From Gemmata palustris (GTDB taxonomy: Bacteria > Planctomycetota > Planctomycetia > Gemmatales > Gemmataceae): DNA of 64,000 nucleotides. The notes under the pieces were generated by a model. That model did not search any database. It was not told where the DNA came from and worked only from the letters and a program-made list of their open reading frames with translations. The position numbers and the translations under genes were made by a program. The stretch covers positions 2,666,001-2,730,000 of the forward strand of contig NZ_JAGKQQ010000001.1 in assembly GCF_017939745.1 (NCBI RefSeq). The letters are read 5' to 3'. Positions within the stretch are counted from its first letter, which is position 1, and each line of letters opens with the position of its first letter. This document shows, piece by piece, positions 23,413-61,403 of the stretch.

Positions 23413-25386
23413 CTATCCGTTAGTCGAATCGAACTCGAGCCGGTACCGGCCGGTGACCACGACCTCATCGTGCTGCCAATCCGCGGTAATAACCTGGAGG
23501 AGCACCGCGAGCCCGGCCGTTCCCGCCACGTCCTCGAACGCCACGTACACGTATTTCGTCGGCGGCTTCACGGGACAGAACAGGGCCATTCCACCCGCGG
23601 ACACGTCGCGACAAAAGCCCTTCATCGGCGGTTCCACTCGACCGTCCGATTGGAGCGGGTAGAGCGTCAGGGGGAACGTCGCGGGAACGCGCGGGTGTTT
23701 CCGCCGGTCCTGGACGTCGTTGAGCGTGCGCCGGATGCCGTCGATGAGTTTCACGATCGTCTTTTCGCCCGACTTCGCGAACTCCGGGGGCGGGTTCCCG
23801 AAGAACTTTCCGGTCACCGCGACTTCCCCGGTACCGCGCCCGGGGTCCGGTAGTTCCACGACTACCTGTAACCCCGAATCGGGCGGCTTGGGCTTCTTGC
23901 TCACGCTGCCGAACCACCCCGTCGGTGCGGCCACGGGCACGAGTTTGCGGAACTCCACACGCCCCTCGGTGCGCGAGTCCATCTCGACCCCGCCCTCCTC
24001 CCAGAGCAGGTCGAGTTTGACTTGAGCCACGCGCGGGTCGATGGTGGTGAGGAACCGGCACCCCCACGTGCCGTCGCTCTCGCGGCTCACCGCTCCCATC
24101 GCGGAATCCATCCCCGCCTCGGCTTCCGCCGCGCGCAACACCGCGTTGACCAAATGCGCGGGCGGGCGACCCGGCACCTGGGCGAACTTCCCTTGTAACC
24201 AGGCGACCGGCACAACCGAAAGAATCTGTTCGAGACACGCGCCGGCCGGTTGCGGTTTCGGCGCTCGTTCGGCGACGACAGGCGCGCGGGCCGGGGCCGG
24301 CGGAGGAGGCACCGTGCGCTGTGGGGGAACCGGCTGCGGGGCGGGAGTAACGAACGACGGCGTGCTGCGGTGAGTCGCTTGGTTCGCGTCACCGGTGCCG
24401 CGCGTAGGCGCGCCGGAGGCGCCGGGAGGCGCGGGCGCGGGCGCCGCCGGAACCGGGTTCGCAATCGGTCCCGAGCCGCGCGGCGATGGTGTGAGCAAAC
24501 TCGCCATGAGCGACGTAACCGAGCGCGACGTGCCCCCGCTCAGCGCGTTCACGAAATCCGCACACGACGCGAACCGATCATCGGGCTTTTTCGCGAGCGC
24601 GGTCCCGATCACAGCACGGTCCGGCGGAGGGAGCCCGCTCAGGTCCGGCGGCGCGGACATGTGCTGGAGCATCATTTGCTGCACGCTGCGCCCGTTAAAC
24701 GGGAACGTACCCGTGAGGAGTTCGTGGTACACGAGCGCGAGACTGTATTGGTCCGATCGGGTATGAACCTGCCCGCAGAGAACTTCGGGGGCCGCATAGC
24801 GCGGCGTGAGTCCGCGGTTTTCCTGGCGGTTCTTCCCCGTATCGAGCTTGCTCACGAGGCCGTAGTCACCGACCTGCACGTGCCCGGCCGTGAGAAAGAG
24901 GTTGGCCGGTTTCACGTCGAGGTGCTGGAGCCCGTACTTCGCGCCGATCACATCGAGTGCTTCGGCCGCTTCGCGCAAGTACCCCAGGAGTTCCGGGCGC
25001 GGGATGCCGGGGAGCCCCCCGGTTCGGCACTCGTCGTACCGGTCCCCGAGTTGCTTGTCGGCCAACTCCATGACCATCACCAACTCGTCACCGACCAGTT
25101 CGACGCGCTCGAGGGAAAGCAGAAACGGGTGGCGGATCGCTTTAACCTGCTGGAACGCATCGAGTTCCTGCCGGAGTTGCGTACTGGTGTTGGGCGCCCC
25201 GTCCGAATCACCGGCAACGAACTTGATCGCTTTGTGGAGCCCCCCGGGTGCTTCGCACTTCCATACCTCCCCGAACCCGCCGCGCCCCAAGGGTTCGAGC
25301 AGGACGTATCCGGGAAGCGGGGAGTACCCGGCCGATTTGGTATACACGGAGTGCGTACCACAGTCGGGGGCGGAAACAAGAGGCAT
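23413..25386 (-). CDS. Ser/Thr protein kinase with C-terminal PilZ domain
   Basis: 657 residues. Residues ~27-290 are a Hanks-type kinase: G-loop GRGGFGEV (34-41), ATP-site Lys55, catalytic HLDVKPAN (155-162, Leu in place of the usual Arg), DYG (174-176) and APE (199-201). A Pro/Ala-rich linker runs from ~300 to 385. A middle domain (~385-555) resembles no family I can name. The last ~97 residues form a PilZ domain with both c-di-GMP motifs, RxxxR (Arg562/Arg566) and DxSxxG (594-599). No transmembrane helix is seen, so it should be cytoplasmic. It probably couples c-di-GMP level to protein phosphorylation; this is inference. Confidence 0.88.
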   Translation of the reverse strand: MPLVSAPDCGTHSVYTKSAGYSPLPGYVLLEPLGRGGFGEVWKCEAPGGLHKAIKFVAGDSDGAPNTSTQLRQELDAFQQVKAIRHPFLLSLERVELVGDELVMVMELADKQLGDRYDECRTGGLPGIPRPELLGYLREAAEALDVIGAKYGLQHLDVKPANLFLTAGHVQVGDYGLVSKLDTGKNRQENRGLTPRYAAPEVLCGQVHTRSDQYSLALVYHELLTGTFPFNGRSVQQMMLQHMSAPPDLSGLPPPDRAVIGTALAKKPDDRFASCADFVNALSGGTSRSVTSLMASLLTPSPRGSGPIANPVPAAPAPAPPGASGAPTRGTGDANQATHRSTPSFVTPAPQPVPPQRTVPPPPAPARAPVVAERAPKPQPAGACLEQILSVVPVAWLQGKFAQVPGRPPAHLVNAVLRAAEAEAGMDSAMGAVSRESDGTWGCRFLTTIDPRVAQVKLDLLWEEGGVEMDSRTEGRVEFRKLVPVAAPTGWFGSVSKKPKPPDSGLQVVVELPDPGRGTGEVAVTGKFFGNPPPEFAKSGEKTIVKLIDGIRRTLNDVQDRRKHPRVPATFPLTLYPLQSDGRVEPPMKGFCRDVSAGGMALFCPVKPPTKYVYVAFEDVAGTAGLAVLLQVITADWQHDEVVVTGRYRLEFDSTNG

Positions 25387-52254: not shown

Positions 52255-53652
52255 TCAGAACGAGTAGTTGAAGAACGACATCGCTTCGACACCCCACGGG
52301 CGCGGGCCGGTAACCGGGACACCAATCGAGGTGCTGAACGACGCCCGGTTGAACCGGAAGCGGAAGCCACTGGTGATGTTGACCTGATCCTGCAGGTACA
52401 CGAGTCCGTCCGGGTTCCGCTGCGTCAGCGGCGTGCGCACGTGGACCTCGACCACCGGAGCGACGCTGGTCAGCCAAGTGTTGTTGGCCGTGGTGCGATA
52501 GAGGTAGTACCCGACGCCGACGCTGTTGTTCCACAACGTCGGGTCACTGCTACTCGTCGGGACGATGAGGCTCGTGATCCCCTGGACGAACGTGCGGTCG
52601 AAGGTCCGCACGAAGCCGCCCCAGGGCTGGAACAGCACCGAGTGCGGTGCCTTCGTGCCGTCGAGGAGGGTCGCGTCCCCGCTCCCGGTCGGTACGGTCA
52701 GGATGAGGCCGCCGGAGATCAGGTCGCCGGTTTCGCGATTGTTGTAAAAGGCGTACTTGAAGAGCAGCGACAGGTCGCCGACGTTCTGTGTGCCGCCCAC
52801 ACCGGGAGGCCCGTACTGCTGCACGAACGGTAAGCGCATCCCGAACGACGCATCGCCGTTCAGGAACGTCTTCTCGAAGCCGACCGTCTCGCGCTGGAGG
52901 TCGGTTTGACCCAAGCCCGGGTTCAGTGACCCGCCGATGTTGTCGTAAAAGTTGTACCCGCCGTAGATGCGGTCCTGTGGGCGCGGATTGTCGTTATCGG
53001 AGATCAGTACCCCACTGTACCGGCCCGCGAGCGTGAGGCGCGCGATCCGCTGTTGCGCGACGAGAGTGTTCACCGTGACCGGGTCGTTCACGATGATCGG
53101 GTTGTTCGTGGTCGTGACTGTGTTTGTGACGACCAGGCGCCCGAGCTGATCGGTCCCGATCACCTGCGTCGTGGTCGTGACCGGTGTGTACCCGGTGACG
53201 CGCTGCGTGAACCCGACCACTTGGGGCACGATCGTGTACCCGGTCGTGATGCGCCGCTTGTAGTACACGCCGCCAAAGTCGCCGTCGAAGTTTTCGTTGA
53301 ACGTCCGAGGCGCGACTCCCCCGGCCTCCGTTGCTTGCGCGAACGGATCGAGGAGTCGGCGCTCGAGCGGGTTCGGGGCGGGGGCTTCGGGGGGCATAAT
53401 GGGGTCGGTACCCGGCGGCGCAACCGGCGGGTCCATCCGCGGCGCGTTCGGATCGACCGGAACTCCGGGCATACTCGGAACGCCCGGGGTGTAGGGGCCG
53501 ACGCCGAACGGCGGGCACGGCACCACGGGCGGACGCGAGTAGCGCTGGCCGCCCCCGAAAGCGACGGTCGAGGGCACGTATCGATCTTGTGCGCGGGAGG
53601 CCGTACCCGCGAGCAACAGGCCGACGAGGGCTGGGGCAAGCACCCGGCGCAT
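52255..53652 (-). CDS. Outer-membrane beta-barrel protein of unknown function
   Basis: 465 residues. A signal peptide (LVGLLLAGTASRAQ) is followed by a Pro-rich segment (residues ~40-100), then alternating strands: YTIVPQVVGFTQRV, TTTTQVIGTDQLGRLVVT, LTLAGRYSGVLISD, DLSLLFKYAFYN, GGLILTVPTGSGD and so on. The chain ends in Phe (SFFNYSF), the C-terminal aromatic typical of outer-membrane barrels. The pattern suggests a planctomycete barrel of the BBP7/porin-like kind; no transported substrate can be named. It reads leftwards, 113 bp after the cytochrome-type gene, with a terminator hairpin at its end. Confidence 0.75.
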   Translation of the reverse strand: MRRVLAPALVGLLLAGTASRAQDRYVPSTVAFGGGQRYSRPPVVPCPPFGVGPYTPGVPSMPGVPVDPNAPRMDPPVAPPGTDPIMPPEAPAPNPLERRLLDPFAQATEAGGVAPRTFNENFDGDFGGVYYKRRITTGYTIVPQVVGFTQRVTGYTPVTTTTQVIGTDQLGRLVVTNTVTTTNNPIIVNDPVTVNTLVAQQRIARLTLAGRYSGVLISDNDNPRPQDRIYGGYNFYDNIGGSLNPGLGQTDLQRETVGFEKTFLNGDASFGMRLPFVQQYGPPGVGGTQNVGDLSLLFKYAFYNNRETGDLISGGLILTVPTGSGDATLLDGTKAPHSVLFQPWGGFVRTFDRTFVQGITSLIVPTSSSDPTLWNNSVGVGYYLYRTTANNTWLTSVAPVVEVHVRTPLTQRNPDGLVYLQDQVNITSGFRFRFNRASFSTSIGVPVTGPRPWGVEAMSFFNYSF

Positions 53653-53765: not shown

Positions 53766-55295
53766 TCATTTACTCGTTACTTCGATCGGAATCAGTTTCC
53801 GCACGACCGCGTTCGGGTCAAAGGCCTCTTTCGCGGTCGGGTTGAACAAAAAGCGTCGAATCGGCTTCTCGAGATGCTTGCTCTGCAGCACTGTTGGCAG
53901 TGGAAGTTCGGTCTCGGACGCGAGCAGAACGAAGTGTTCCATTCCCGTGTCGCCGCCAGTGAGGATGCTTGAAATCGAGAACCCCTTCCCGTTCGGTGTG
54001 AGGAGCCGCTCGGTATCCGCCTTGAGCACGGTCCCGCCCTGCACCGTCTGCACGCGCACGTCCCCGTCCGCTTGTATTAGGAGCAACGTGAAGAAGACTG
54101 TGCGGTCGCAAGACACCCGCAACTGGAACGGCTCGCTGGCCTTCACTTGTTTGACCGGCTTGCCGTCGATAACGAGTTCGGCCTTTAACACAAATGGGGC
54201 TTTGACGGGCGCGACGTCACCCGCGAACCACGCCGAGAGCGGCGGAATCGGTGCCCGGCCCTCGACCGACGCGGACACACGGACGGCTCGCGCACCTGCA
54301 AACGGTCGCGCGATCGGGCCGTCCGGTTCATCGGCTTTGCCCGCGATGGCCTTTTCAAGTGCGGCCAGTGCTCGGATGTCTTCCGCGAGTGGGGTCGGGT
54401 CCGGCCCGCGCCCCACGGCGCGCGAAAGAAAATTACGCCCGACGAGCGCGTCTGTGAGCCAGTCGTCGCGGACGAACGGGATCGGGCGCACCTGGCTCTC
54501 ACGCGCGAGCAACTTTTCGAGGCGCGGAGCAAGCAGGTCATTCGCGGCGAGCGCCCGCGCGTGCGGGTACTCCAGAAGGATCAGGTCGAAGGGCCGGAAT
54601 CGCACCGCGGTGCCGACCGTGAACCCCTCCATTTTGTTGAACAGTTCGCGCGTGTGCCAACCGAGCTTTCGTGTGTCGATGCGAAAAACGGTCGCGGTGG
54701 AGTCGATCGGTTCCGGGCCGACGGATAACCCGGAGACCACATTCAGGGCCTCGCGCAACCGCTGATCGGCGCCGACCAGATCCGGTAGCGGCTTGCCGTC
54801 AACGATGCGGTGCGCGAACGACACGTAGCGGAGGTATTCGCCCGGTTCGCCGGCTTTCGCGTTCGCACTCGCGCGCTCGAAGTCGTCGGCGATCGCGGCC
54901 AGTGTGGTGCGCTCGTCGAAGTCGATCGGGTAGGCGGGCGCCTTCGCGTTCACCCACTTTTCGAGAACCGCGATCTCGTCCGCGTCCGGTCCCGGCCGGT
55001 TCGCGGGCGGCATCGAGCCGTCCTTCACGAGTTCGAGAATCAACGACCGCCCGTTCGGGCTCGCGAACGGGATCGGCGACTTCTTCGTGACCTGCTTGTG
55101 GTCCGTGAGTTTGAGTTTGCTCGCGCCCGGTTCGAGGCTCCCGGTGTGGCACTCCGCGCAGTGCCGCTTCAGGATGTCGCGCGCGCGGATCGCAAGGTCA
55201 CCGGCAACGCGATAGTCCGGTGTCTCCGCCCCCCGCGCGAGCGCCGGACAAAGGAGCACCAAAGTGAGAACAAAGCCGGCGACGACGCGAGGCAT
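53766..55295 (-). CDS. Secreted CXXCH protein with planctomycete cytochrome domain and DUF4384-like tail
   Basis: 509 residues from ATG 55295, with a clear signal peptide (GFVLTLVLLCPALARGA). Residues ~28-120 are a planctomycete cytochrome c-type domain: haem site CAECH (46-50) and the typical later SPNGRSLILELVKDGSMPP. The middle ~250 residues are of unknown type. Residues ~390-495 (ELVIDGKPVKQVKASEPFQLRVSCDRTVFFTLLLIQADGDV, read as two parts) resemble DUF4384, a domain often found with caspase-like proteins. The gene starts 53 bp after the caspase gene on the same strand, so an operon is likely. An axial ligand beyond His was not identified. It may bind haem and partner the caspase. Confidence 0.82.
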   Translation of the reverse strand: MPRVVAGFVLTLVLLCPALARGAETPDYRVAGDLAIRARDILKRHCAECHTGSLEPGASKLKLTDHKQVTKKSPIPFASPNGRSLILELVKDGSMPPANRPGPDADEIAVLEKWVNAKAPAYPIDFDERTTLAAIADDFERASANAKAGEPGEYLRYVSFAHRIVDGKPLPDLVGADQRLREALNVVSGLSVGPEPIDSTATVFRIDTRKLGWHTRELFNKMEGFTVGTAVRFRPFDLILLEYPHARALAANDLLAPRLEKLLARESQVRPIPFVRDDWLTDALVGRNFLSRAVGRGPDPTPLAEDIRALAALEKAIAGKADEPDGPIARPFAGARAVRVSASVEGRAPIPPLSAWFAGDVAPVKAPFVLKAELVIDGKPVKQVKASEPFQLRVSCDRTVFFTLLLIQADGDVRVQTVQGGTVLKADTERLLTPNGKGFSISSILTGGDTGMEHFVLLASETELPLPTVLQSKHLEKPIRRFLFNPTAKEAFDPNAVVRKLIPIEVTSK

Positions 55296-55348
55296 AAACA
55301 CGGTCTCCGACTCGGTTCTACCGGACAACCTAGCGTTCCCGTTCGCCC

Positions 55349-58300
55349 TCACCGTTTCAGCAGTGGGGTCTTCGACAGTTGGCGCGGGAAGCACACCGGT
55401 GTTTGTGGCTCCTTCAGCCCGGCTCGTTTCAGCAGATCGGGCACCTTCGCCGCAACGTAGCCGTACAACTCCTCCGGCGAAAGCGCGCCGTCGGAATCGT
55501 AGTCGGCTTTGCGGTAGCCTTTAGTTTTGTCGAGCGCGTCGAGTACTGCGAACGTAAACAGGCCGTGGCCGTACTTCGGGTGCTCGTAGGACTGCTCGCC
55601 CCAATCGCACGCGGCGATAATCATCGGCCCCTGTCCGTTCGGCACACACCGGCGGAGCACGTTCGCGGTCGTTGCCCGCCCCGAGTGGCACGCATCGAGG
55701 AGCACCACCTTGCGGCAATTGATCTTCGCGAGCGCGGCGAACAGTTCGTCGGCCGAGTACGCGGTCGCGCGCGGCTTCGTGGGCGAGTAATTCGGGCAAC
55801 AGAACAGGAACTCCCCCTCGTCCACGAGCACCCCCCGACCTCGCGGCGGGAGCGCTCCGTCCTTCGGCATGAGCAGATCGCCGTGACCCGCGAAGAACAC
55901 GACGAGCGTGTCGTCCGGCTTCGCGGCATCGGCGATGCGTGCGAGTTCCGCGGCAAAGGTTTTGCGCTCGGGGTCGAGTTGCAGGTCGATCTTCGCCTTC
56001 ACGTACAAGAGTTTTGCCCCCGCACACTTCTCCAACTCGGTGCTGAGTGCGGTCGCGTCGTCGTGCGCGTTCTTGAGGTCGCCGAACTTCCGCGCGCCGG
56101 CTACGTTCTTGCGCGTATCGGAGTAGTCGTTGACGGCCGTGAGTAGCGCGAGCAAGTTCGCATCGGCGGGAGGGAGGGCGTTTCGCACGACTTGCATTTC
56201 CTCGGCTCGTCCGCCGGCCGCATTGAACGCGAGCACCGTGACTTGGTTCTCGCCCGTGCGGAACTTGTTCGCGGGGATCGTGTACGGCACGTCGAACGGC
56301 TTCGTCGAATCCAGCACCTGCCCCGGTCGCGGCCAGCTCTCCGCGAGGTGATCGTTCACCCACAACTCGACGCGCTCCGGCAACAGGTCCGGGTTCGTCC
56401 CTCGAGCGCGCATCGAGATCGTGAGCGGGAGCCCCACCTTTTGGACGTCGAGGGCCTTGAGCGCGACCCGCACGGGCGCCGGTTCGTACTTCGTGAACGG
56501 TACGAGGGCCGGAGTTTCGCCGCGGGCCGCGACCAGCGCAGTTCCCGCGTCGCCGGTTTCGGTGAGCTTTTCGATGACTTCGGGCAGGTGGAACAGCTTC
56601 TCGAACTGCTGGAGCTGGTAGAACTCTGGGCGCCCACTGGGTTCGGGGTGGTTGACGTGCCAGCCCGCGAGTCGGTCGCCGTTGGCGGTCTTCGTGTGGT
56701 AGTACGAGCCGTGCCACATCCACACGACCCAGTCGTTCATGTGGTTCTGGGCGTCGAACGCGGGGAACCACTTCCACAGCGGGCGCTGCCGCACGGTGGT
56801 GAGCGTGTCCCGGCGCGCGGACTTCTCTTTGGCCGCGATCCCGAAGAACAGTTCGATGCCGGGTTGCGGAGCTTTGAGTGCATCGAGCGCGGCCGCGACC
56901 GTCCCGACCCGCGCCCCCTTGCGGCGATCGAACACGATGAATTTATCCACCACGAGCAAGTCGAGCACGTCACCGACGCGGAGCCCAGCTTCCCACCCCG
57001 GCGAACCCGATTCGACAACCTCAACAGCGACGCCGTCCCTGTCCTCGAATTTCGCGCCGAGGCCCGGTTCGCTCTTCTTCCAGTCCTTCAATGACCACGC
57101 CGCGAGCGTCTGGTCCGTTCCGCCCGTCGCGAACCACGACTGATCCTTTGATGCCACTACCGACGTGACCTCGCCCGCGTGCCCGGTGAACACTTTCGTG
57201 CCCGAAACCGCACCGTCTTTCGCACGGTCCGGTACCAACTCGAACAGCGTGCAGCCGTAATAGTGGCCGATCAGCACGCGCGTCGGGTAATCGGCCGAAG
57301 CGGGAAGGAACGTGAAGCACGTCGGCGCCTGATCGCGGTTCCGGTCGAGCGCGAGCCGCAAGCGCTCGGTTTTGCCCTCGCGCGTGCGCTCGGCGAACCA
57401 GATGAACCGGTTCTTTTCGTGGGGCACGATGGTCCACCCGTCCGCCTCGGGGCGCGGATTCATCCACACTTGGTTCTCGTCGAGCGTCGGTTTGAGACGA
57501 GACAGGTCAAAGCGCGTCCACGCTCCCGTGCCGCGGGCGTTCGGATCAATAGACTTTGGGTCGCGCTCGACTTGCACGCCGACGATCTTGCCGTTCTCGG
57601 ATACGTTCACGGCCCACGGTCGGCGCCCGGCGCCGCGAACCACGCTCAGCGGTTTGTCCCAATCGGTGAGCCTCCGCAATGTGATTTCGTCCGCTTCACC
57701 GCCCGCAATGGCGAGGTGGGGTTCCGCGGGGTGGAACGCGAGTGCTTCGGCCCGGCCCGCGTGGTGGAACTTGCGTGGTTGTAGGTCCGGTTCCGCTAGC
57801 GGATCTGCGTAGATCCAAATCTGATCGTCCCCATCAGAAAAGAATCGCGGCTTGTCCCCGGTCGGGAGGGCCGCACCGACACCGACCGCGAGTTGCCGCG
57901 TCTTCGGTTGCCATGCGACACTACGCGGAAACTGGTTGGCGCCGAGCGCGAGTTTGATCGTCTTCGTGCCATCGGCACTGCACAGCAGCACTTTCGCATC
58001 GACGCTCGCAATCAGCAGCCACTTCCCGTCGTCGATGAGTTCCGCGCGGTAAACGCGGGCGTCGTCCCGCTGCGTCGCGTTTACGTTGAAGAGCTCTTTC
58101 CCGGGCGGTGCCTGTTTGGGCGCATCCGCCACGGTGCTCACTAGATGGCACGAATAAACCTGCCCGCTCTGCGCGACCGAAACGAGCGTGTGCTTGTCGG
58201 GGAAATAGATGAGCCGCGGGAGGTTGAAGCCCGCGGTCGCGGCGAGGTCTTTCGGCGGCTCGTGTTTCCCCACGCGCACGGGGGGCGCGGCGCTGCGCCC

Positions 58301-58858
58301 GTCCGGGTCCGATTTTTCTAATCGTGTCGTATCCCAAATCCACAGGCTCCCGTCGGCGGTTCCGAATCCGACGCGCTTCCCGTCCGCATGGAACGCGACC
58401 GCGGTGACCACGTTGAAGTTCGCGTCCCCCTCGCGCGACACGGGCCACGTAATGGCAACGGTATCCCCGGTCGCGCGATCTAACACCGCGACCGTGCTCG
58501 GTTTCATCCCGTAACCGCCGACCACGACCCTCTTGCCATCGGGCGTGGCACTCACGGCCTTGATCCCGCCGCGCTGCTCGCGCCAGGCGCGCCACCGCAG
58601 TGTTTGCACCTTCACGCGGTCCGTTTCGAGGCCCGCTGCCGCGTGCGGCCACACGCGCACGACTTTGTCGTCGCCGGCCGCGAACAGGTACTTCCCGTCC
58701 GAAGTGAACCGCAGCACGTCACACGGCCCGACGCGCCCGCCGGCCTCGACAACGATTTCCGGTTCCTCCCGCGAGCGCCGGTCGAACTGCTGTGCCGCGG
58801 CCGGCTCCACAAAGAACGTCGCAGCGGCAATGGTGAAAAAGAGTGCGTTCACGGTCAT
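55349..58858 (-). CDS. Secreted WD40 - PDZ - caspase (C14) protein with EF-hand loop
   Basis: 1169 residues from ATG 58858 with a signal peptide (LFFTIAAATFFVEPAAAQ). Residues ~40-590 form WD40-type blades (SDGKYLFAAGDDKVVRVW, HADGKRVGFGTADGSLWIWD, SKDQSWFATGGTDQTLAAW). Residues ~595-675 are PDZ-like (VVESGSPGWEAGLRVGDVLD). After a linker, ~901-1169 is a caspase p20-like domain: GDLKNAHDDATAL, catalytic His992 (FFAGHGD) and Cys1057 (LLDACHSG). A canonical EF-hand loop occupies 1119-1130 (DYDSDGALSPEE), so calcium may control it. Substrates are unknown; metacaspase-like proteases favour cleavage after Arg/Lys, which is only an analogy here. The downstream CXXCH gene is probably co-transcribed. 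Confidence 0.9.
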   Translation of the reverse strand: MTVNALFFTIAAATFFVEPAAAQQFDRRSREEPEIVVEAGGRVGPCDVLRFTSDGKYLFAAGDDKVVRVWPHAAAGLETDRVKVQTLRWRAWREQRGGIKAVSATPDGKRVVVGGYGMKPSTVAVLDRATGDTVAITWPVSREGDANFNVVTAVAFHADGKRVGFGTADGSLWIWDTTRLEKSDPDGRSAAPPVRVGKHEPPKDLAATAGFNLPRLIYFPDKHTLVSVAQSGQVYSCHLVSTVADAPKQAPPGKELFNVNATQRDDARVYRAELIDDGKWLLIASVDAKVLLCSADGTKTIKLALGANQFPRSVAWQPKTRQLAVGVGAALPTGDKPRFFSDGDDQIWIYADPLAEPDLQPRKFHHAGRAEALAFHPAEPHLAIAGGEADEITLRRLTDWDKPLSVVRGAGRRPWAVNVSENGKIVGVQVERDPKSIDPNARGTGAWTRFDLSRLKPTLDENQVWMNPRPEADGWTIVPHEKNRFIWFAERTREGKTERLRLALDRNRDQAPTCFTFLPASADYPTRVLIGHYYGCTLFELVPDRAKDGAVSGTKVFTGHAGEVTSVVASKDQSWFATGGTDQTLAAWSLKDWKKSEPGLGAKFEDRDGVAVEVVESGSPGWEAGLRVGDVLDLLVVDKFIVFDRRKGARVGTVAAALDALKAPQPGIELFFGIAAKEKSARRDTLTTVRQRPLWKWFPAFDAQNHMNDWVVWMWHGSYYHTKTANGDRLAGWHVNHPEPSGRPEFYQLQQFEKLFHLPEVIEKLTETGDAGTALVAARGETPALVPFTKYEPAPVRVALKALDVQKVGLPLTISMRARGTNPDLLPERVELWVNDHLAESWPRPGQVLDSTKPFDVPYTIPANKFRTGENQVTVLAFNAAGGRAEEMQVVRNALPPADANLLALLTAVNDYSDTRKNVAGARKFGDLKNAHDDATALSTELEKCAGAKLLYVKAKIDLQLDPERKTFAAELARIADAAKPDDTLVVFFAGHGDLLMPKDGALPPRGRGVLVDEGEFLFCCPNYSPTKPRATAYSADELFAALAKINCRKVVLLDACHSGRATTANVLRRCVPNGQGPMIIAACDWGEQSYEHPKYGHGLFTFAVLDALDKTKGYRKADYDSDGALSPEELYGYVAAKVPDLLKRAGLKEPQTPVCFPRQLSKTPLLKR

Positions 58859-58979
58859 AGCGGTTCGTGGGTTTCGTGCGGGCCGAAGCGCGGCCGACCT
58901 CAATAGCATACGCGAGCGGGTGCCGACAGTTTCAAGTACAATCGCATTACTTTGCCGCCCGGTGAACGGAACGAGACCG
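58859..58979. promoter_or_regulatory. 121-bp divergent promoter region between caspase and kinase genes
   Basis: Both start codons face outward from this short gap, so both promoters must be inside or overlapping it. On the minus strand TTGAAA and TATGCT lie 19 bases apart, a weak candidate. On the plus strand a TACAAT at ~58938 is a possible -10 box without a good -35 partner. Shared control of the two genes is likely from the geometry. Confidence 0.35.
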
Positions 58980-61403
58980 ATGTTCGACACGTTATCCGAC
59001 GACGACAAGAACCGCGTGACGGCACGGTCCGAGGAGTTCCAGCGCGCGCTCGGGCGCGGCGGGGTGACCGACTGGGAGCCGTTCCTCGCGGGCTTGATCG
59101 GGGACGCGCGCCGGCTGCTCCTCACGGACCTCGTCGCGCGCGACCTGGGGCACCGGTGGGAGCGGGGCGAACAGCCGAAGATCGAAGACTACCTCGCGCG
59201 CTACCCGGAACTCGGCCCCGCGGATCGGGTCTCGGCCGCGCTCATACTCGAAGAGTTCCGGTGCCGGGTTCGGGCCGGCGCCCGGCCCCCCGCGACCGAG
59301 TACCGCGACCGCTTCCCCGGCCAATTCGACGCGATTCAGACCGAACTGGACGCGGTCGTCTCGTCGGGAACGATCTCCGAGGGCGGCCCCCGCCCGTGGG
59401 AACCGATGGCCGAGAGCGTCGTCGCGATGTCGCAGCAGTACGAACTGGTGCGCGAACTGGGCCGCGGAATGTACGGCGAGGTGTGGCTGGCCCGGAAGAA
59501 GCCCAGCGGCATCGAGCGGGCCATCAAGATCCTGCTCCAGTCCGCCGACCGCGAGGCCGGGCAGCGCGAACTGAAATCGCTCGAACTCATCAAGAACTTG
59601 CGCCACCCGTACCTGCTCGCGACGGAAGACTTCTGGGTCACGAACAACCGGCTCCACATTGTGATGGAGCTGGCCGAAGGCACGCTCCGCGGGCGCTTAA
59701 AGGAGTATCTCGCTCAGGGGCGCCCGGGCGTCGAGGCGGATGAACTGTTCCAGTACATCGCGGAAGCCGCAGAGGGGCTCGATTTCCTCCACTCACAGAA
59801 GATCACCCACCGCGACGTGAAGCCGGACAACATCCTCATCCTCCACGGCCACGCGAAACTCGCGGACTTCGGCCTCGCGCGCGCCCAGGCGCAAGTCGTT
59901 GAGTCGATGAGTCTTGCCGGGACACCGGCGTATATGGCGCCCGAGATTTGGGGCGGCGAGGGCGGGCCGGCCAGCGACCTTTACAGTCTCGCGTTCGCCT
60001 ATGTCGAACTGAGACAGGGTCGGTCCCCCCTGCGGCCCCGGCCGCTCGTGGAGTTGATGATTGCGCACCAGGAGGGGAGTTACGAATTCACCGAAACGGT
60101 GACGGAAGCCGAACGCGCGGTGTTGCGCCAAGCACTGGCCGCAAAACCACAGGACCGCCACCCGACCTGCACGGACTTCGCCGCGGATCTGGCGGACGCA
60201 CTCGGGCTGCCCTTTGCAGGCGGTGGGCGCAGAGTTGCGGGCCGTGGGTCTTCACATCACGGTAACCCGCCACTCCCCCCCGTGTTTGGTTCGGCCGGCG
60301 CGTTCGCGAGCGGTAGCCTGCCGATGCCGGAGACCGGCGTCGCGGGCGGAACGGTTGTCATCGATTCACTGCGCCGAAAACCGCGCCCCGAACCGGAACC
60401 ACTTCCAGAAGCGGAACCGCTTCCAGAAGAGTACGCGCCCACCGAATCGCGGCGCGCGTGGCCACTCATTGCCGGAGGAACGGTCGCGCTGGCCGCGCTC
60501 GTCGCGTTCGGCATTTGGGCCGTGTTCGGCGGGCCGAGAATCAACCCGACCCAGCCCGAGATAGCCACGAAACCCTCTACCGATCAACCCAATCCGAACC
60601 CGAAGCCACCCGGCCCGGATGTCCCCCCGGCCGTTCCGCCCACAGGAGACGTCATTCGCGGGGCGGCCGTCGCAGTAGTCGATCGAGCGAACAACCTGCC
60701 CGATGTACCTCCGAAGCCGGAACCGAAACTGCTGTTCCCCGCGGGCACGATACCAGAGCCGGGCGCGAAGGAGGTACAACTCGCTGATAAACGGGTACCC
60801 GAGTGGGTGTTCGTCGAGAGGAATAACGAGAAGGTCCGGTTCCGGCTCATCACGGGACAACCGGGACCGAACGTGGCGCCGTTCTACATCATGGAAACGA
60901 AGGTCACGAACAAGCTGTACACGGGTGGCGACGGCACCCCCGTCGTGAACGTAACGGCCCGCGACGCACAGGAATTCGCGCGAAAGGTATTCGGCGGCGA
61001 CCTCCCGACCGACGAACAGTGGGACCACGCGGCCGGCTTCCACGACCAGGACGGCCAAACCGGGCCGACGCTCCCCCCGGGGCGGGCGTGGATCGATAAG
61101 GACGTGCCCGGTCCGGTGAAGCGCGCAACGACCGAAGCTGATGTGAACCGCTACGGGTTGCTCGATATGGCCGGCAACGGCCGCGAATGGACGCGGACCG
61201 TCCTGACGCGCGCCGGCAAACGGAAGGTTCTTGGCACGGACCCGCTCGACGAAATGGACAAGGTCATTTTGCGCGGCCGGAGCTTCTTCCTCGACCGCCC
61301 GCTGAACTTCAAAATGCTAGAGACGGAACGCACCACGCAACCGCAAGCCGCGATCACCGCGGGGCCGTACACGAGTTTCCGCGTCGTTCTCGCACTGCCA
61401 TGA
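58980..61403 (+). CDS. Membrane Ser/Thr kinase with FGE/sulfatase-modifying-like outer domain
   Basis: 807 residues from ATG 58980. Residues ~10-135 are a helical N-terminus found in many planctomycete kinases. The Hanks kinase domain (~154-410) is complete: GRGMYGEV (161-168), Lys183, HRDVKPDN (278-285), DFG (296-298) and APE (320-322). A Pro-rich linker leads to one transmembrane helix (494-518), with Arg residues before it, so the kinase is inside and the rest outside. After a further Pro-rich spacer, ~630-807 resembles the FGE-sulfatase fold (FYIMETKVTN, LPTDEQWDHAAG, NRYGLLDMAGNGREWT, SFRVVLA). This outer domain has no Cys, so it cannot be an active formylglycine enzyme; it is probably a sensor. 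Confidence 0.9.
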   Translation: MFDTLSDDDKNRVTARSEEFQRALGRGGVTDWEPFLAGLIGDARRLLLTDLVARDLGHRWERGEQPKIEDYLARYPELGPADRVSAALILEEFRCRVRAGARPPATEYRDRFPGQFDAIQTELDAVVSSGTISEGGPRPWEPMAESVVAMSQQYELVRELGRGMYGEVWLARKKPSGIERAIKILLQSADREAGQRELKSLELIKNLRHPYLLATEDFWVTNNRLHIVMELAEGTLRGRLKEYLAQGRPGVEADELFQYIAEAAEGLDFLHSQKITHRDVKPDNILILHGHAKLADFGLARAQAQVVESMSLAGTPAYMAPEIWGGEGGPASDLYSLAFAYVELRQGRSPLRPRPLVELMIAHQEGSYEFTETVTEAERAVLRQALAAKPQDRHPTCTDFAADLADALGLPFAGGGRRVAGRGSSHHGNPPLPPVFGSAGAFASGSLPMPETGVAGGTVVIDSLRRKPRPEPEPLPEAEPLPEEYAPTESRRAWPLIAGGTVALAALVAFGIWAVFGGPRINPTQPEIATKPSTDQPNPNPKPPGPDVPPAVPPTGDVIRGAAVAVVDRANNLPDVPPKPEPKLLFPAGTIPEPGAKEVQLADKRVPEWVFVERNNEKVRFRLITGQPGPNVAPFYIMETKVTNKLYTGGDGTPVVNVTARDAQEFARKVFGGDLPTDEQWDHAAGFHDQDGQTGPTLPPGRAWIDKDVPGPVKRATTEADVNRYGLLDMAGNGREWTRTVLTRAGKRKVLGTDPLDEMDKVILRGRSFFLDRPLNFKMLETERTTQPQAAITAGPYTSFRVVLALP

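Follow-up and report, generated by a model that had tools for sequence, protein, structure and literature searches.

The window, a stretch of 64,000 nucleotides from Gemmata palustris (NCBI RefSeq assembly GCF_017939745.1, contig NZ_JAGKQQ010000001.1, forward-strand positions 2,666,001 to 2,730,000), holds a compact locus whose parts are collected in Table 1. As an earlier, sequence-only reading had described, an exported-looking WD40-PDZ-caspase (CAS) is followed on the same strand, 53 bp behind, by a CXXCH protein (CYT), and a Ser/Thr kinase (KIN) is encoded divergently, 121 bp away from CAS. Outside the view of that reading were three further partners: an ECF sigma factor (SIG); X, an exported-looking protein that is a further partner in relatives; and BAR, which is also present in the window.

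Table 1. Positions of the genes and features of the locus within the window
Feature	Position	Strand	Remarks
BAR, beta-rich protein that looks exported; gene directly following CYT	52255..53652	-	follows CYT in 14 genomes
CYT: predicted signal peptide, c-type cytochrome-like domain (CXXCH, GSMPP), middle region, beta-sandwich tail (DUF4384-like)	53766..55295	-	509 aa
CYT Met95 (GSMPP), likely axial haem ligand	55011..55013	-	invariant in 10/10 aligned CYT
CYT haem-attachment motif CAECH	55146..55160	-	
CAS: predicted signal peptide, WD40 propeller region, PDZ-like, linker, caspase (Peptidase_C14)	55349..58858	-	1169 aa
EF-hand-like loop DYDSDGALSPEEL near CAS caspase C-terminus	55466..55504	-	EF-hand_5 E 0.073
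CAS catalytic Cys1057 codon (DACHSG)	55688..55690	-	C in 29/30 relatives, one truncated
CAS catalytic His992 codon (HGD)	55883..55885	-	H in 29/30 relatives, one truncated
Shared divergent promoter region of KIN and CAS	58859..58979	.	blocks TAGCATACGCG; GTACAAT, conserved among close relatives
KIN: cytoplasmic Ser/Thr kinase, transmembrane segment, outer FGE-like domain	58980..61403	+	807 aa, divergent from CAS
KIN kinase domain, HRD and DFG present	59439..60161	+	
KIN transmembrane segment, approx. residues 494-516	60459..60527	+	strongest hydrophobic stretch (hydropathy)
KIN FGE-like outer domain (C-type-lectin-fold family)	60927..61388	+	without Cys past GN-x-x-EW

CAS, whose start codon is the ATG at 58858, matches the Pfam families WD40 (2.6e-18) and Peptidase_C14 (39.9 bits, exceeding the curated cut-off of 21.4), and reaches 20.8 bits with PDZ_6, under the cut-off of 27. 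The His992/Cys1057 pair had been called intact and is so; the dyad is likewise intact in 29 of 30 CAS, the remaining one being truncated, and the sequence points to a Cys/His protease that would be active. An EF-hand-like pattern is present in 22 of 30 CAS, and lanmodulin and EF-hand entries came up in a profile search. A PF00656 search of the window's own genome did not list the window caspase, though a protein scan detects CAS. In a survey of 343 genomes of the phylum, with three candidates scored per genome, at least 4, counting the window genome itself, have a match at E ≤1e-40.

The CXXCH motif noticed in CYT held up; both CXXCH and the methionine of GSMPP are invariant across 10 aligned CYT. 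Among all 24 CYT calls the motif is present in 19 and appears in three more after start extension, the final two being cut at contig ends. Cytochrome_CBB3 matches 9 of 10 members and PSCyt1 3 of 10 (E up to 0.1); for the window CYT, the Cytochrome_CBB3 score of 16.3-16.5 bits (cut-off 27) is sub-threshold for this protein taken singly. The same is true of DUF4384, which scores 17.4 bits (cut-off 27) and, with E values allowed up to 0.1, matches 2 of 10 members. The tail is a beta-sandwich in the predicted structure, and the VIA structure matches for CYT mostly cover this tail (residues ~350-509), where Ig-like sandwiches reach a Z of 9.5; a Foldseek search of the CYT fold gave no match at E up to 0.001. 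Judging by its motifs, CYT probably binds haem.

KIN is a single-pass kinase with the architecture that had been proposed for it: Pkinase matches with 148.7 bits, the transmembrane segment stands out by hydropathy, and the outer part matches the FGE-sulfatase fold family with 62.3 bits. FGE enzymes need C-terminal catalytic cysteines. We found no Cys downstream of GN-x-x-EW in the FGE domain of the window KIN, which makes a binding domain more likely than a catalytic one, and assignment of KIN as a formylglycine-generating enzyme was rejected on the same ground. Cys past this motif is absent in 11 of the 12 motif-bearing KIN, with one Cys in the other (G072). The FGE family is akin to the C-type-lectin fold, according to a passage of PMC8195603. 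We also built a tree from 26 kinase domains, in which the KIN that adjoin CAS or SIG are separate from a cluster of four other kinases. Two placements in this tree speak against a module: a kinase from a genome outside the family (G421) falls with the KIN of G037, and the KIN of G094 adjoins the outside group.

Export was judged by an in-house hydropathy rule alone, under which CAS, CYT and BAR each start with a hydrophobic stretch at the N-terminus. When only family members with an ATG start call are counted, 18 of 19 CAS and 14 of 17 CYT pass the limit, which is reached by none of 9 sigma factors and by 14 of the 44 window genes (CAS, CYT and BAR included). CAS and CYT would accordingly be exported from the cytoplasm if the rule is a fair guide. 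The predicted structure of BAR has a mean pLDDT of 34.9, so that we label this protein beta-rich only. The conserved blocks of the region shared by KIN and CAS appear, by eye, sigma-70-like, and none of them ties SIG to the CAS operon, which counts against a module under sigma control. So does the window itself: no sigma gene is present at its locus, and the best sigma match in its genome is only 37% identical.

Conservation of the three-gene neighbourhood had been set beforehand as the test of the locus. In a survey by profile search, with adjacency defined as within 3 kb, this test was not cleanly passed: adjacency recurs in other genera, but the genes are partly scattered. CYT follows CAS in 14 of the 29 CAS-bearing genomes and KIN is divergent from CAS in 11 of them, with SIG between in G037 and G094; all three genes are adjacent in 8. 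Distant relatives have a larger locus, in which KIN is divergent from a run of ECF sigma factor, CAS, X, CYT and the beta-rich protein. Its parts recur pairwise: KIN and SIG as a divergent pair in 8 genomes, which belong to 5 genera, SIG followed by CAS in 7 genomes, CAS by X in 12, X by CYT in 8 and CYT by BAR in 14. One example comes from another genus (locus L087 of G037, CAS ~36% identical), where all six genes lie in one run and none of the non-module genes matches the window's flank. In Zavarzinella formosa (locus L146), KIN is divergent from SIG followed by CAS. In four close relatives (G009-G012) the entire region is syntenic with the window, so that adjacency there says little by itself. 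In four genera KIN is a neighbour of CAS, whether or not SIG separates the two, and each of these genera has at least one tested genome with flanks unlike the window's (G019, G037, G087, G094). On the other hand, 5 of the 29 CAS genomes have X without CYT linked to CAS (G029, G030, G032, G034, G043), which counts against a module. Comparison of X with PDB and Pfam led nowhere, and comparison with the CYT tail by profile gave no usable relation (probability 3.7, E 0.011).

Presence and absence across 95 family genomes likewise point to linkage, the three genes occurring together far more often than expected. CAS and CYT occur together in 23 genomes, CAS only in 6, CYT only in 2 and neither in 64 (p 1.8e-14, kinship ignored); for CAS and KIN the corresponding numbers are 21, 8, 0 and 66 (p 7e-15, kinship ignored). 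Thus all 21 family genomes with a strong KIN also carry CAS; at a looser KIN limit, 7 of 32 are without it. Within the window's genus all three genes are present in 12 genomes, none in 6 and CYT only in 1, and the genomes without the module are scattered over several branches of an RpoB tree (18 of the 19 genomes; G013 had no RpoB match). Against a module, SIG relatives are also found in genomes without strong CAS (e.g. G001, G049, G014). The earlier proposal that the genes form one unit is therefore upheld in part: co-occurrence, joint loss and distant adjacent loci stand for it, full adjacency in only 8 of 29 genomes against it. Linkage of CAS, CYT and KIN is supported by shared presence and absence, joint loss and adjacency within differing flanks, and we rejected a chance neighbourhood on account of the loci with different flanks and the shared absence.

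Individual elements of this locus have precedents. Passages of the survey PMC3501461 place WD40 and FGE among the commonest partner domains of bacterial caspases, mention sigma factors in some caspase operons, and note that some caspases have a likely signal peptide, with 30 placed outside the cell and 529 of 671 without a localisation clue. CAS shares the His/Cys dyad and the WD40 fusion with known bacterial homologues (Peptidase_C14, ortho- and metacaspases), whereas here FGE belongs to a kinase of its own and the caspase gene is followed by one for a cytochrome-like partner; 29 of 30 CAS have the dyad, while the figure reported for planctomycetes in PMC3501461 is 64%. In the EACC2/EACC1 caspase conflict systems, as outlined in passages of PMC8195603 and PMC7159879 that also name Gemmata species for TRADD-N caspases, the caspase likewise neighbours an ECF sigma factor; in contrast, the window set is exported-looking and includes a cytochrome-like protein. 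CAS missed the EACC1-associated model NF047832 (70.3 bits, cut-off 140). Nor did we adopt a filing as a defence system, PADLOC giving a single weak caspase match (29.7 bits) and KIN, matched by 33 kinase-type families with MAD6 on top, scoring 126 with the NCBIfam MAD6 model against a cut-off of 460. In 8 relatives an ECF sigma factor adjoins a Hanks-type kinase that spans the membrane, which is also the arrangement of the known kinase-sigma pairs (ECF43: PknT-EcfP, PknS-EcfK; planctomycete ECF59, 61, 62, 217). Unlike the phosphorylation-activated ECF43 sigma factors, which are without the DxxD acidic motif, the relatives' sigma keeps D(P/A)ED in region 2.2 in 10 of 10 aligned, so we rejected ECF43 membership and the known ECF43 phospho-switch is not directly transferable; the window locus, moreover, is without a sigma factor. 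Among the literature matches listed we found no published description of the module.

An exported-looking caspase accompanied by a cytochrome-like protein, a membrane kinase and, in relatives, a sigma factor makes a signal-controlled protein-cutting system of the envelope plausible. Our best explanation, to which we give about an even chance, is a lineage-restricted envelope signalling and proteolysis module under kinase/ECF control, reduced in Gemmata. The lectin-like FGE domain of KIN would read an envelope cue, and the ECF sigma factor, divergently encoded in 8 relatives, would be the inward target of KIN and set the transcription of genes including the caspase operon. The earlier model had the outer kinase domain sensing the caspase or its products; the gene arrangement in relatives rather suggests that KIN signals to the sigma factor and that the caspase operon may be one of the outputs. 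The effector would be CAS, exported together with X and/or CYT; its WD40 region and PDZ-like part would hold the protease, the EF-hand-like loop might make it calcium-gated, and CYT might supply a haem (redox) input or act as a partner. In the window lineage, sigma and X would have gone from the locus, where KIN and CAS have one divergent promoter region in common. The computation shows gene content, conservation, linkage, joint loss and intact active-site residues; export, haem binding, protease activity, phosphorylation of sigma by KIN and SIG control of the operon are steps that we infer. In other systems, kinases of this type are known to control ECF sigma factors (PMC13147305, PMC8999054).

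It might be argued that only CAS and CYT form a true unit, with kinase and sigma factor being a separate signalling pair that is their neighbour through the shared promoter region. Indeed, a KIN-SIG pair without CAS nearby is seen in 6 genomes (G015, G018, G022, G034, G088, G092), although the view beyond SIG spans only ~1.8 kb in G092 and ~0.2 kb in G088, and in G013 a gene that by eye resembles a LysR regulator occupies the expected place of KIN. Moreover, 134 kinase-domain matches are found in the window genome, though some are fragments of a single gene, and a kinase neighbour is thus not rare. This division is nevertheless rather unlikely in view of the presence of CAS in every strong-KIN genome, even when unlinked, and of the four genera in which KIN adjoins CAS. 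A housekeeping role, in which CAS would act in the envelope to trim or remove CYT, BAR and X or their substrates and would have no dedicated signalling function, fits the short gaps between co-directional window genes and the recurrence of BAR behind CYT. However, the whole set is patchily and repeatedly absent and co-occurs with a receptor-like kinase and a sigma factor, which better fits a conditional system; we regard housekeeping as very unlikely.

By analogy with the apoptosome, CYT could dock in the envelope, through its haem domain, onto the CAS WD40 propeller and gate the caspase as a redox switch. Planctomycetes have many cytochrome-like proteins, which weakens the case, as does the linkage of CAS to X and not to CYT in several genera. 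In its favour, 14 genomes have co-directional genes for a WD40-caspase and a c-type cytochrome-like protein within 3 kb, the haem motifs are conserved, as is the catalytic dyad, and WD40 repeats sense cytochrome c in the APAF-1 apoptosome, as a passage of PMC7159879 has it. The two parts lists have WD40, a c-type cytochrome and a caspase in common; they differ in that the present set belongs to a bacterial envelope, joins WD40 and caspase in one chain and has a putative CYT-CAS interaction, and a Pfam scan of CAS, CYT, KIN and five neighbouring genes of the window yielded neither STAND NTPase nor AP-ATPase. Such a switch seems to us very improbable. Highly doubtful, too, is the extended version, a Gemmataceae extracytoplasmic apoptosome analogue in which an envelope haem protein gates the WD40-caspase and a lectin-like receptor kinase, via an ECF sigma factor where present, sets expression. 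If true, it would amount to a proteolytic or self-killing response outside the cytoplasm, controlled by redox and surface cues.

Most discussion of bacterial caspases treats them as effectors of death or defence. If real, the kinase/ECF-controlled module would be a well-defined case, open to testing, in which a signal controls proteolysis by a caspase in the bacterial envelope, and the naming of the partner genes sigma, X and BAR makes its control circuit testable.

The genes for the WD40-PDZ-caspase (CAS), the cytochrome-c-like CXXCH protein (CYT) and the membrane Ser/Thr kinase with an outer FGE-like domain (KIN) lie where the sequence-only reading had placed them; their positions, the 53-bp and 121-bp gaps and the caspase His992/Cys1057 pair were all borne out (see table). 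In Pfam searches, WD40 and Peptidase_C14 exceeded the cut-off in CAS and the PDZ match was sub-threshold; an EF-hand-like loop lies near the end of the protein, its pattern being present in 22 of 30 members. KIN matched Pkinase and FGE-sulfatase, both above cut-off. Its FGE-like domain has no cysteine after the core motif and, judging from the sequence, is likely a ligand binder. In two relatives (G009, L064:12703-15290; G011, L069:12687-15094), KIN is broken into two overlapping frames close to the linker that joins the membrane helix to the FGE domain; sequencing error, decay and frameshift are candidate causes. A second Ser/Thr kinase gene occupies 23413-25347 of the window, away from the locus, and the genome holds 134 kinase-domain matches, together with three more caspase-domain matches outside the CAS locus (G000:C1:4328937, 3888378 and 8258648; L001-L003).

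Coordinates of module genes and related features (window positions; L### are loci extracted from relatives)
Feature	Position	Strand	Remarks
CAS	58858 (ATG) to 55349	minus	1169 aa; HGD His992, DACHSG Cys1057
CYT	start 53 bp behind CAS stop	co-directional with CAS	
KIN	start 58980	opposite to CAS	121 bp from CAS
KIN-CAS intergenic	58859-58979		blocks TAGCATACGCG and GTACAAT kept in close relatives
Protein X, examples	L078:3230-4585; L089:634-3443; L091:101-2948		exported-looking

For the window's CYT protein, both the cytochrome and the DUF4384 matches were sub-threshold in Pfam. The assignment is strengthened by family evidence: all 10 aligned members have CXXCH and the GSMPP methionine, and 9 of the 10 matched Cytochrome_CBB3 and 3 PSCyt1 (E up to 0.1). 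The AlphaFold2 model is fair (mean pLDDT 77.6, pTM 0.80) and has a beta-sandwich tail; residues 48-76, around the haem motif, score under 50. By a simple hydropathy rule, the sole basis of our export calls and counted on proteins called from ATG, 18/19 CAS, 9/9 X, 14/17 CYT and 10/13 BAR proteins passed (X is an exported-looking protein of relatives' loci; BAR, also exported-looking, is beta-rich and encoded behind CYT, in the window too); the limit was reached by 0/9 sigma factors and 14/44 window genes.

Linkage of the module genes is well supported. Among 95 Gemmataceae genomes searched for the three proteins, 39 had some CAS match (E up to 1e-10); at presence limits of 200, 100 and 330 bits, CAS, CYT and KIN were present in 29, 25 and 21 genomes, respectively. 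CAS and CYT occurred together in 23 genomes, CAS only in 6, CYT only in 2 and neither in 64, and CAS was found in all 21 KIN genomes. With the KIN limit lowered to 270 bits, the corresponding CAS/KIN table was 25, 4, 7 and 59 (Fisher p 9.5e-13, kinship ignored). The genus of the window is represented by 12 genomes with the full set of genes, six with none (94-98% complete) and one, G025 (68% complete), with CYT and a KIN fragment below the limit. In an RpoB tree of 18 of the 19 genus genomes, the six empty genomes are scattered over five positions among the full ones. Because support for the backbone is poor (0.27 to 0.75), we put the separate losses of the three-gene set in this genus at three or more.

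The sequence-only reading had proposed looking for the three-gene neighbourhood across Gemmataceae and other planctomycetes. In the family, the arrangement is partly scattered: CAS, CYT and KIN lie together in 8 of the 29 CAS genomes (G000, the window's own, G009, G010, G011, G012, G019, G037 and G087), contig ends limiting the view in others (e.g. G015, G016, G017, G044, G046, G092). All three genes are far apart on one contig in G022, on different contigs in G015 and G018, and at separate places in G072 and G073; G014, the sister of G015, G018 and G022, has none of them and retains a sigma relative. In G013, what looks by eye like a LysR-like gene occupies the place of KIN.

Six family profiles, searched against 60 loci plus the window, with neighbours tallied within 3 kb, revealed a larger arrangement that includes an ECF sigma factor (SIG, matching Sigma70_ECF). 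The co-directional pairs were CAS>CYT (14 genomes), CYT>BAR (14), CAS>X (12), X>CYT (8) and SIG>CAS (7), and the divergent ones KIN/CAS (11) and KIN/SIG (8); SIG>CYT occurred in 2 genomes, plus 2 convergent. KIN pairs with SIG in five genera (g1, the window's, g13, g15, g37 and g39), facing CAS directly in g1 and g37 and across SIG in g15 and g39. The fullest locus (L087, from G037) has KIN divergent from SIG-CAS-X-CYT-BAR. Four loci (L064, L065, L066, L069) are syntenic with the window well past the module; in L067, L075, L078 and L083-L087, no non-module gene matched the window's flank. The family was recognised as Gemmataceae from its named relatives, among them Gemmata sp. IIL30, Zavarzinella formosa, Limnoglobus roseus and Fimbriiglobus MAGs. 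In two genomes with no strong CAS (G028:C124:4278-7450; G042:C81:4242-7204), KIN-like and SIG-like matches lie <2 kb apart, convergent by coordinates. Protein X, of ~450 aa and duplicated in some of the 12 family genomes where it follows caspases, had no Pfam match above cut-off, no PDB match and no match in the window's genome (E up to 1e-8); it is possibly an undescribed caspase partner family.

Outside the family, at least 3 of 342 further genomes of the phylum had a match (E up to 1e-40). One of them, G215 (L111:4961-18401), encodes a WD40-caspase beside a divergent ECF sigma factor, followed by STPK-TPR and STPK-FGE; the matches to X and BAR alongside score 30 bits (very weak) and 63 bits (weak), respectively. 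This locus is possibly an older form of the module and, given its gene set, the caspase-sigma-kinase association may predate the family. Alternatively, the association may stem from the abundance of kinases and sigma factors next to planctomycete WD40 genes (PMC5587647).

The KIN-SIG pair resembles the kinase-activated ECF43 sigma factors in layout. However, region 2.2 of ECF43 is described as lacking the acidic motif and gaining charge through threonine phosphorylation (PMC13147305, PMC8999054), whereas SIG retains D(P/A)ED in 10 of 10 aligned relatives and so differs in this motif. Under phosphorylation, a review gives planctomycete members for groups ECF59, 61, 62 and 217 (PMC8999054). The window's genome has three SIG relatives, the best 37% identical (E up to 1e-15). 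In G044, a T6SS VasE (TssK) gene adjoins SIG (L083:7771-9195); a T6SS is under the control of the Xanthomonas PknS-EcfK pair (PMC13147305), and the proximity in G044 may be coincidence.

Bacterial caspases frequently carry WD40 and FGE domains, some have likely signal peptides and some of their operons include sigma factors (PMC3501461); EACC2-caspase systems are accompanied by an ECF sigma factor (PMC8195603). Among the matches listed for open-access literature on caspases and metacaspases in combination with planctomycetes, Gemmata, cytochromes, WD40 or sigma factors, the module was not described. We infer each functional step of the following scheme. KIN would read an envelope cue via its FGE-like domain, and SIG, where it exists, would be its natural inward target. 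CAS, X, CYT and BAR, exported-looking and encoded together, would be the obvious candidates for an output or effector arm in which CAS acts as the protease. In the window's lineage, SIG and X are absent from the locus, and KIN and CAS share an intergenic region whose blocks, conserved in close relatives, are possible divergent promoters. The module is real and conserved, a variant among bacterial caspase systems for which no description was found in the literature searched.
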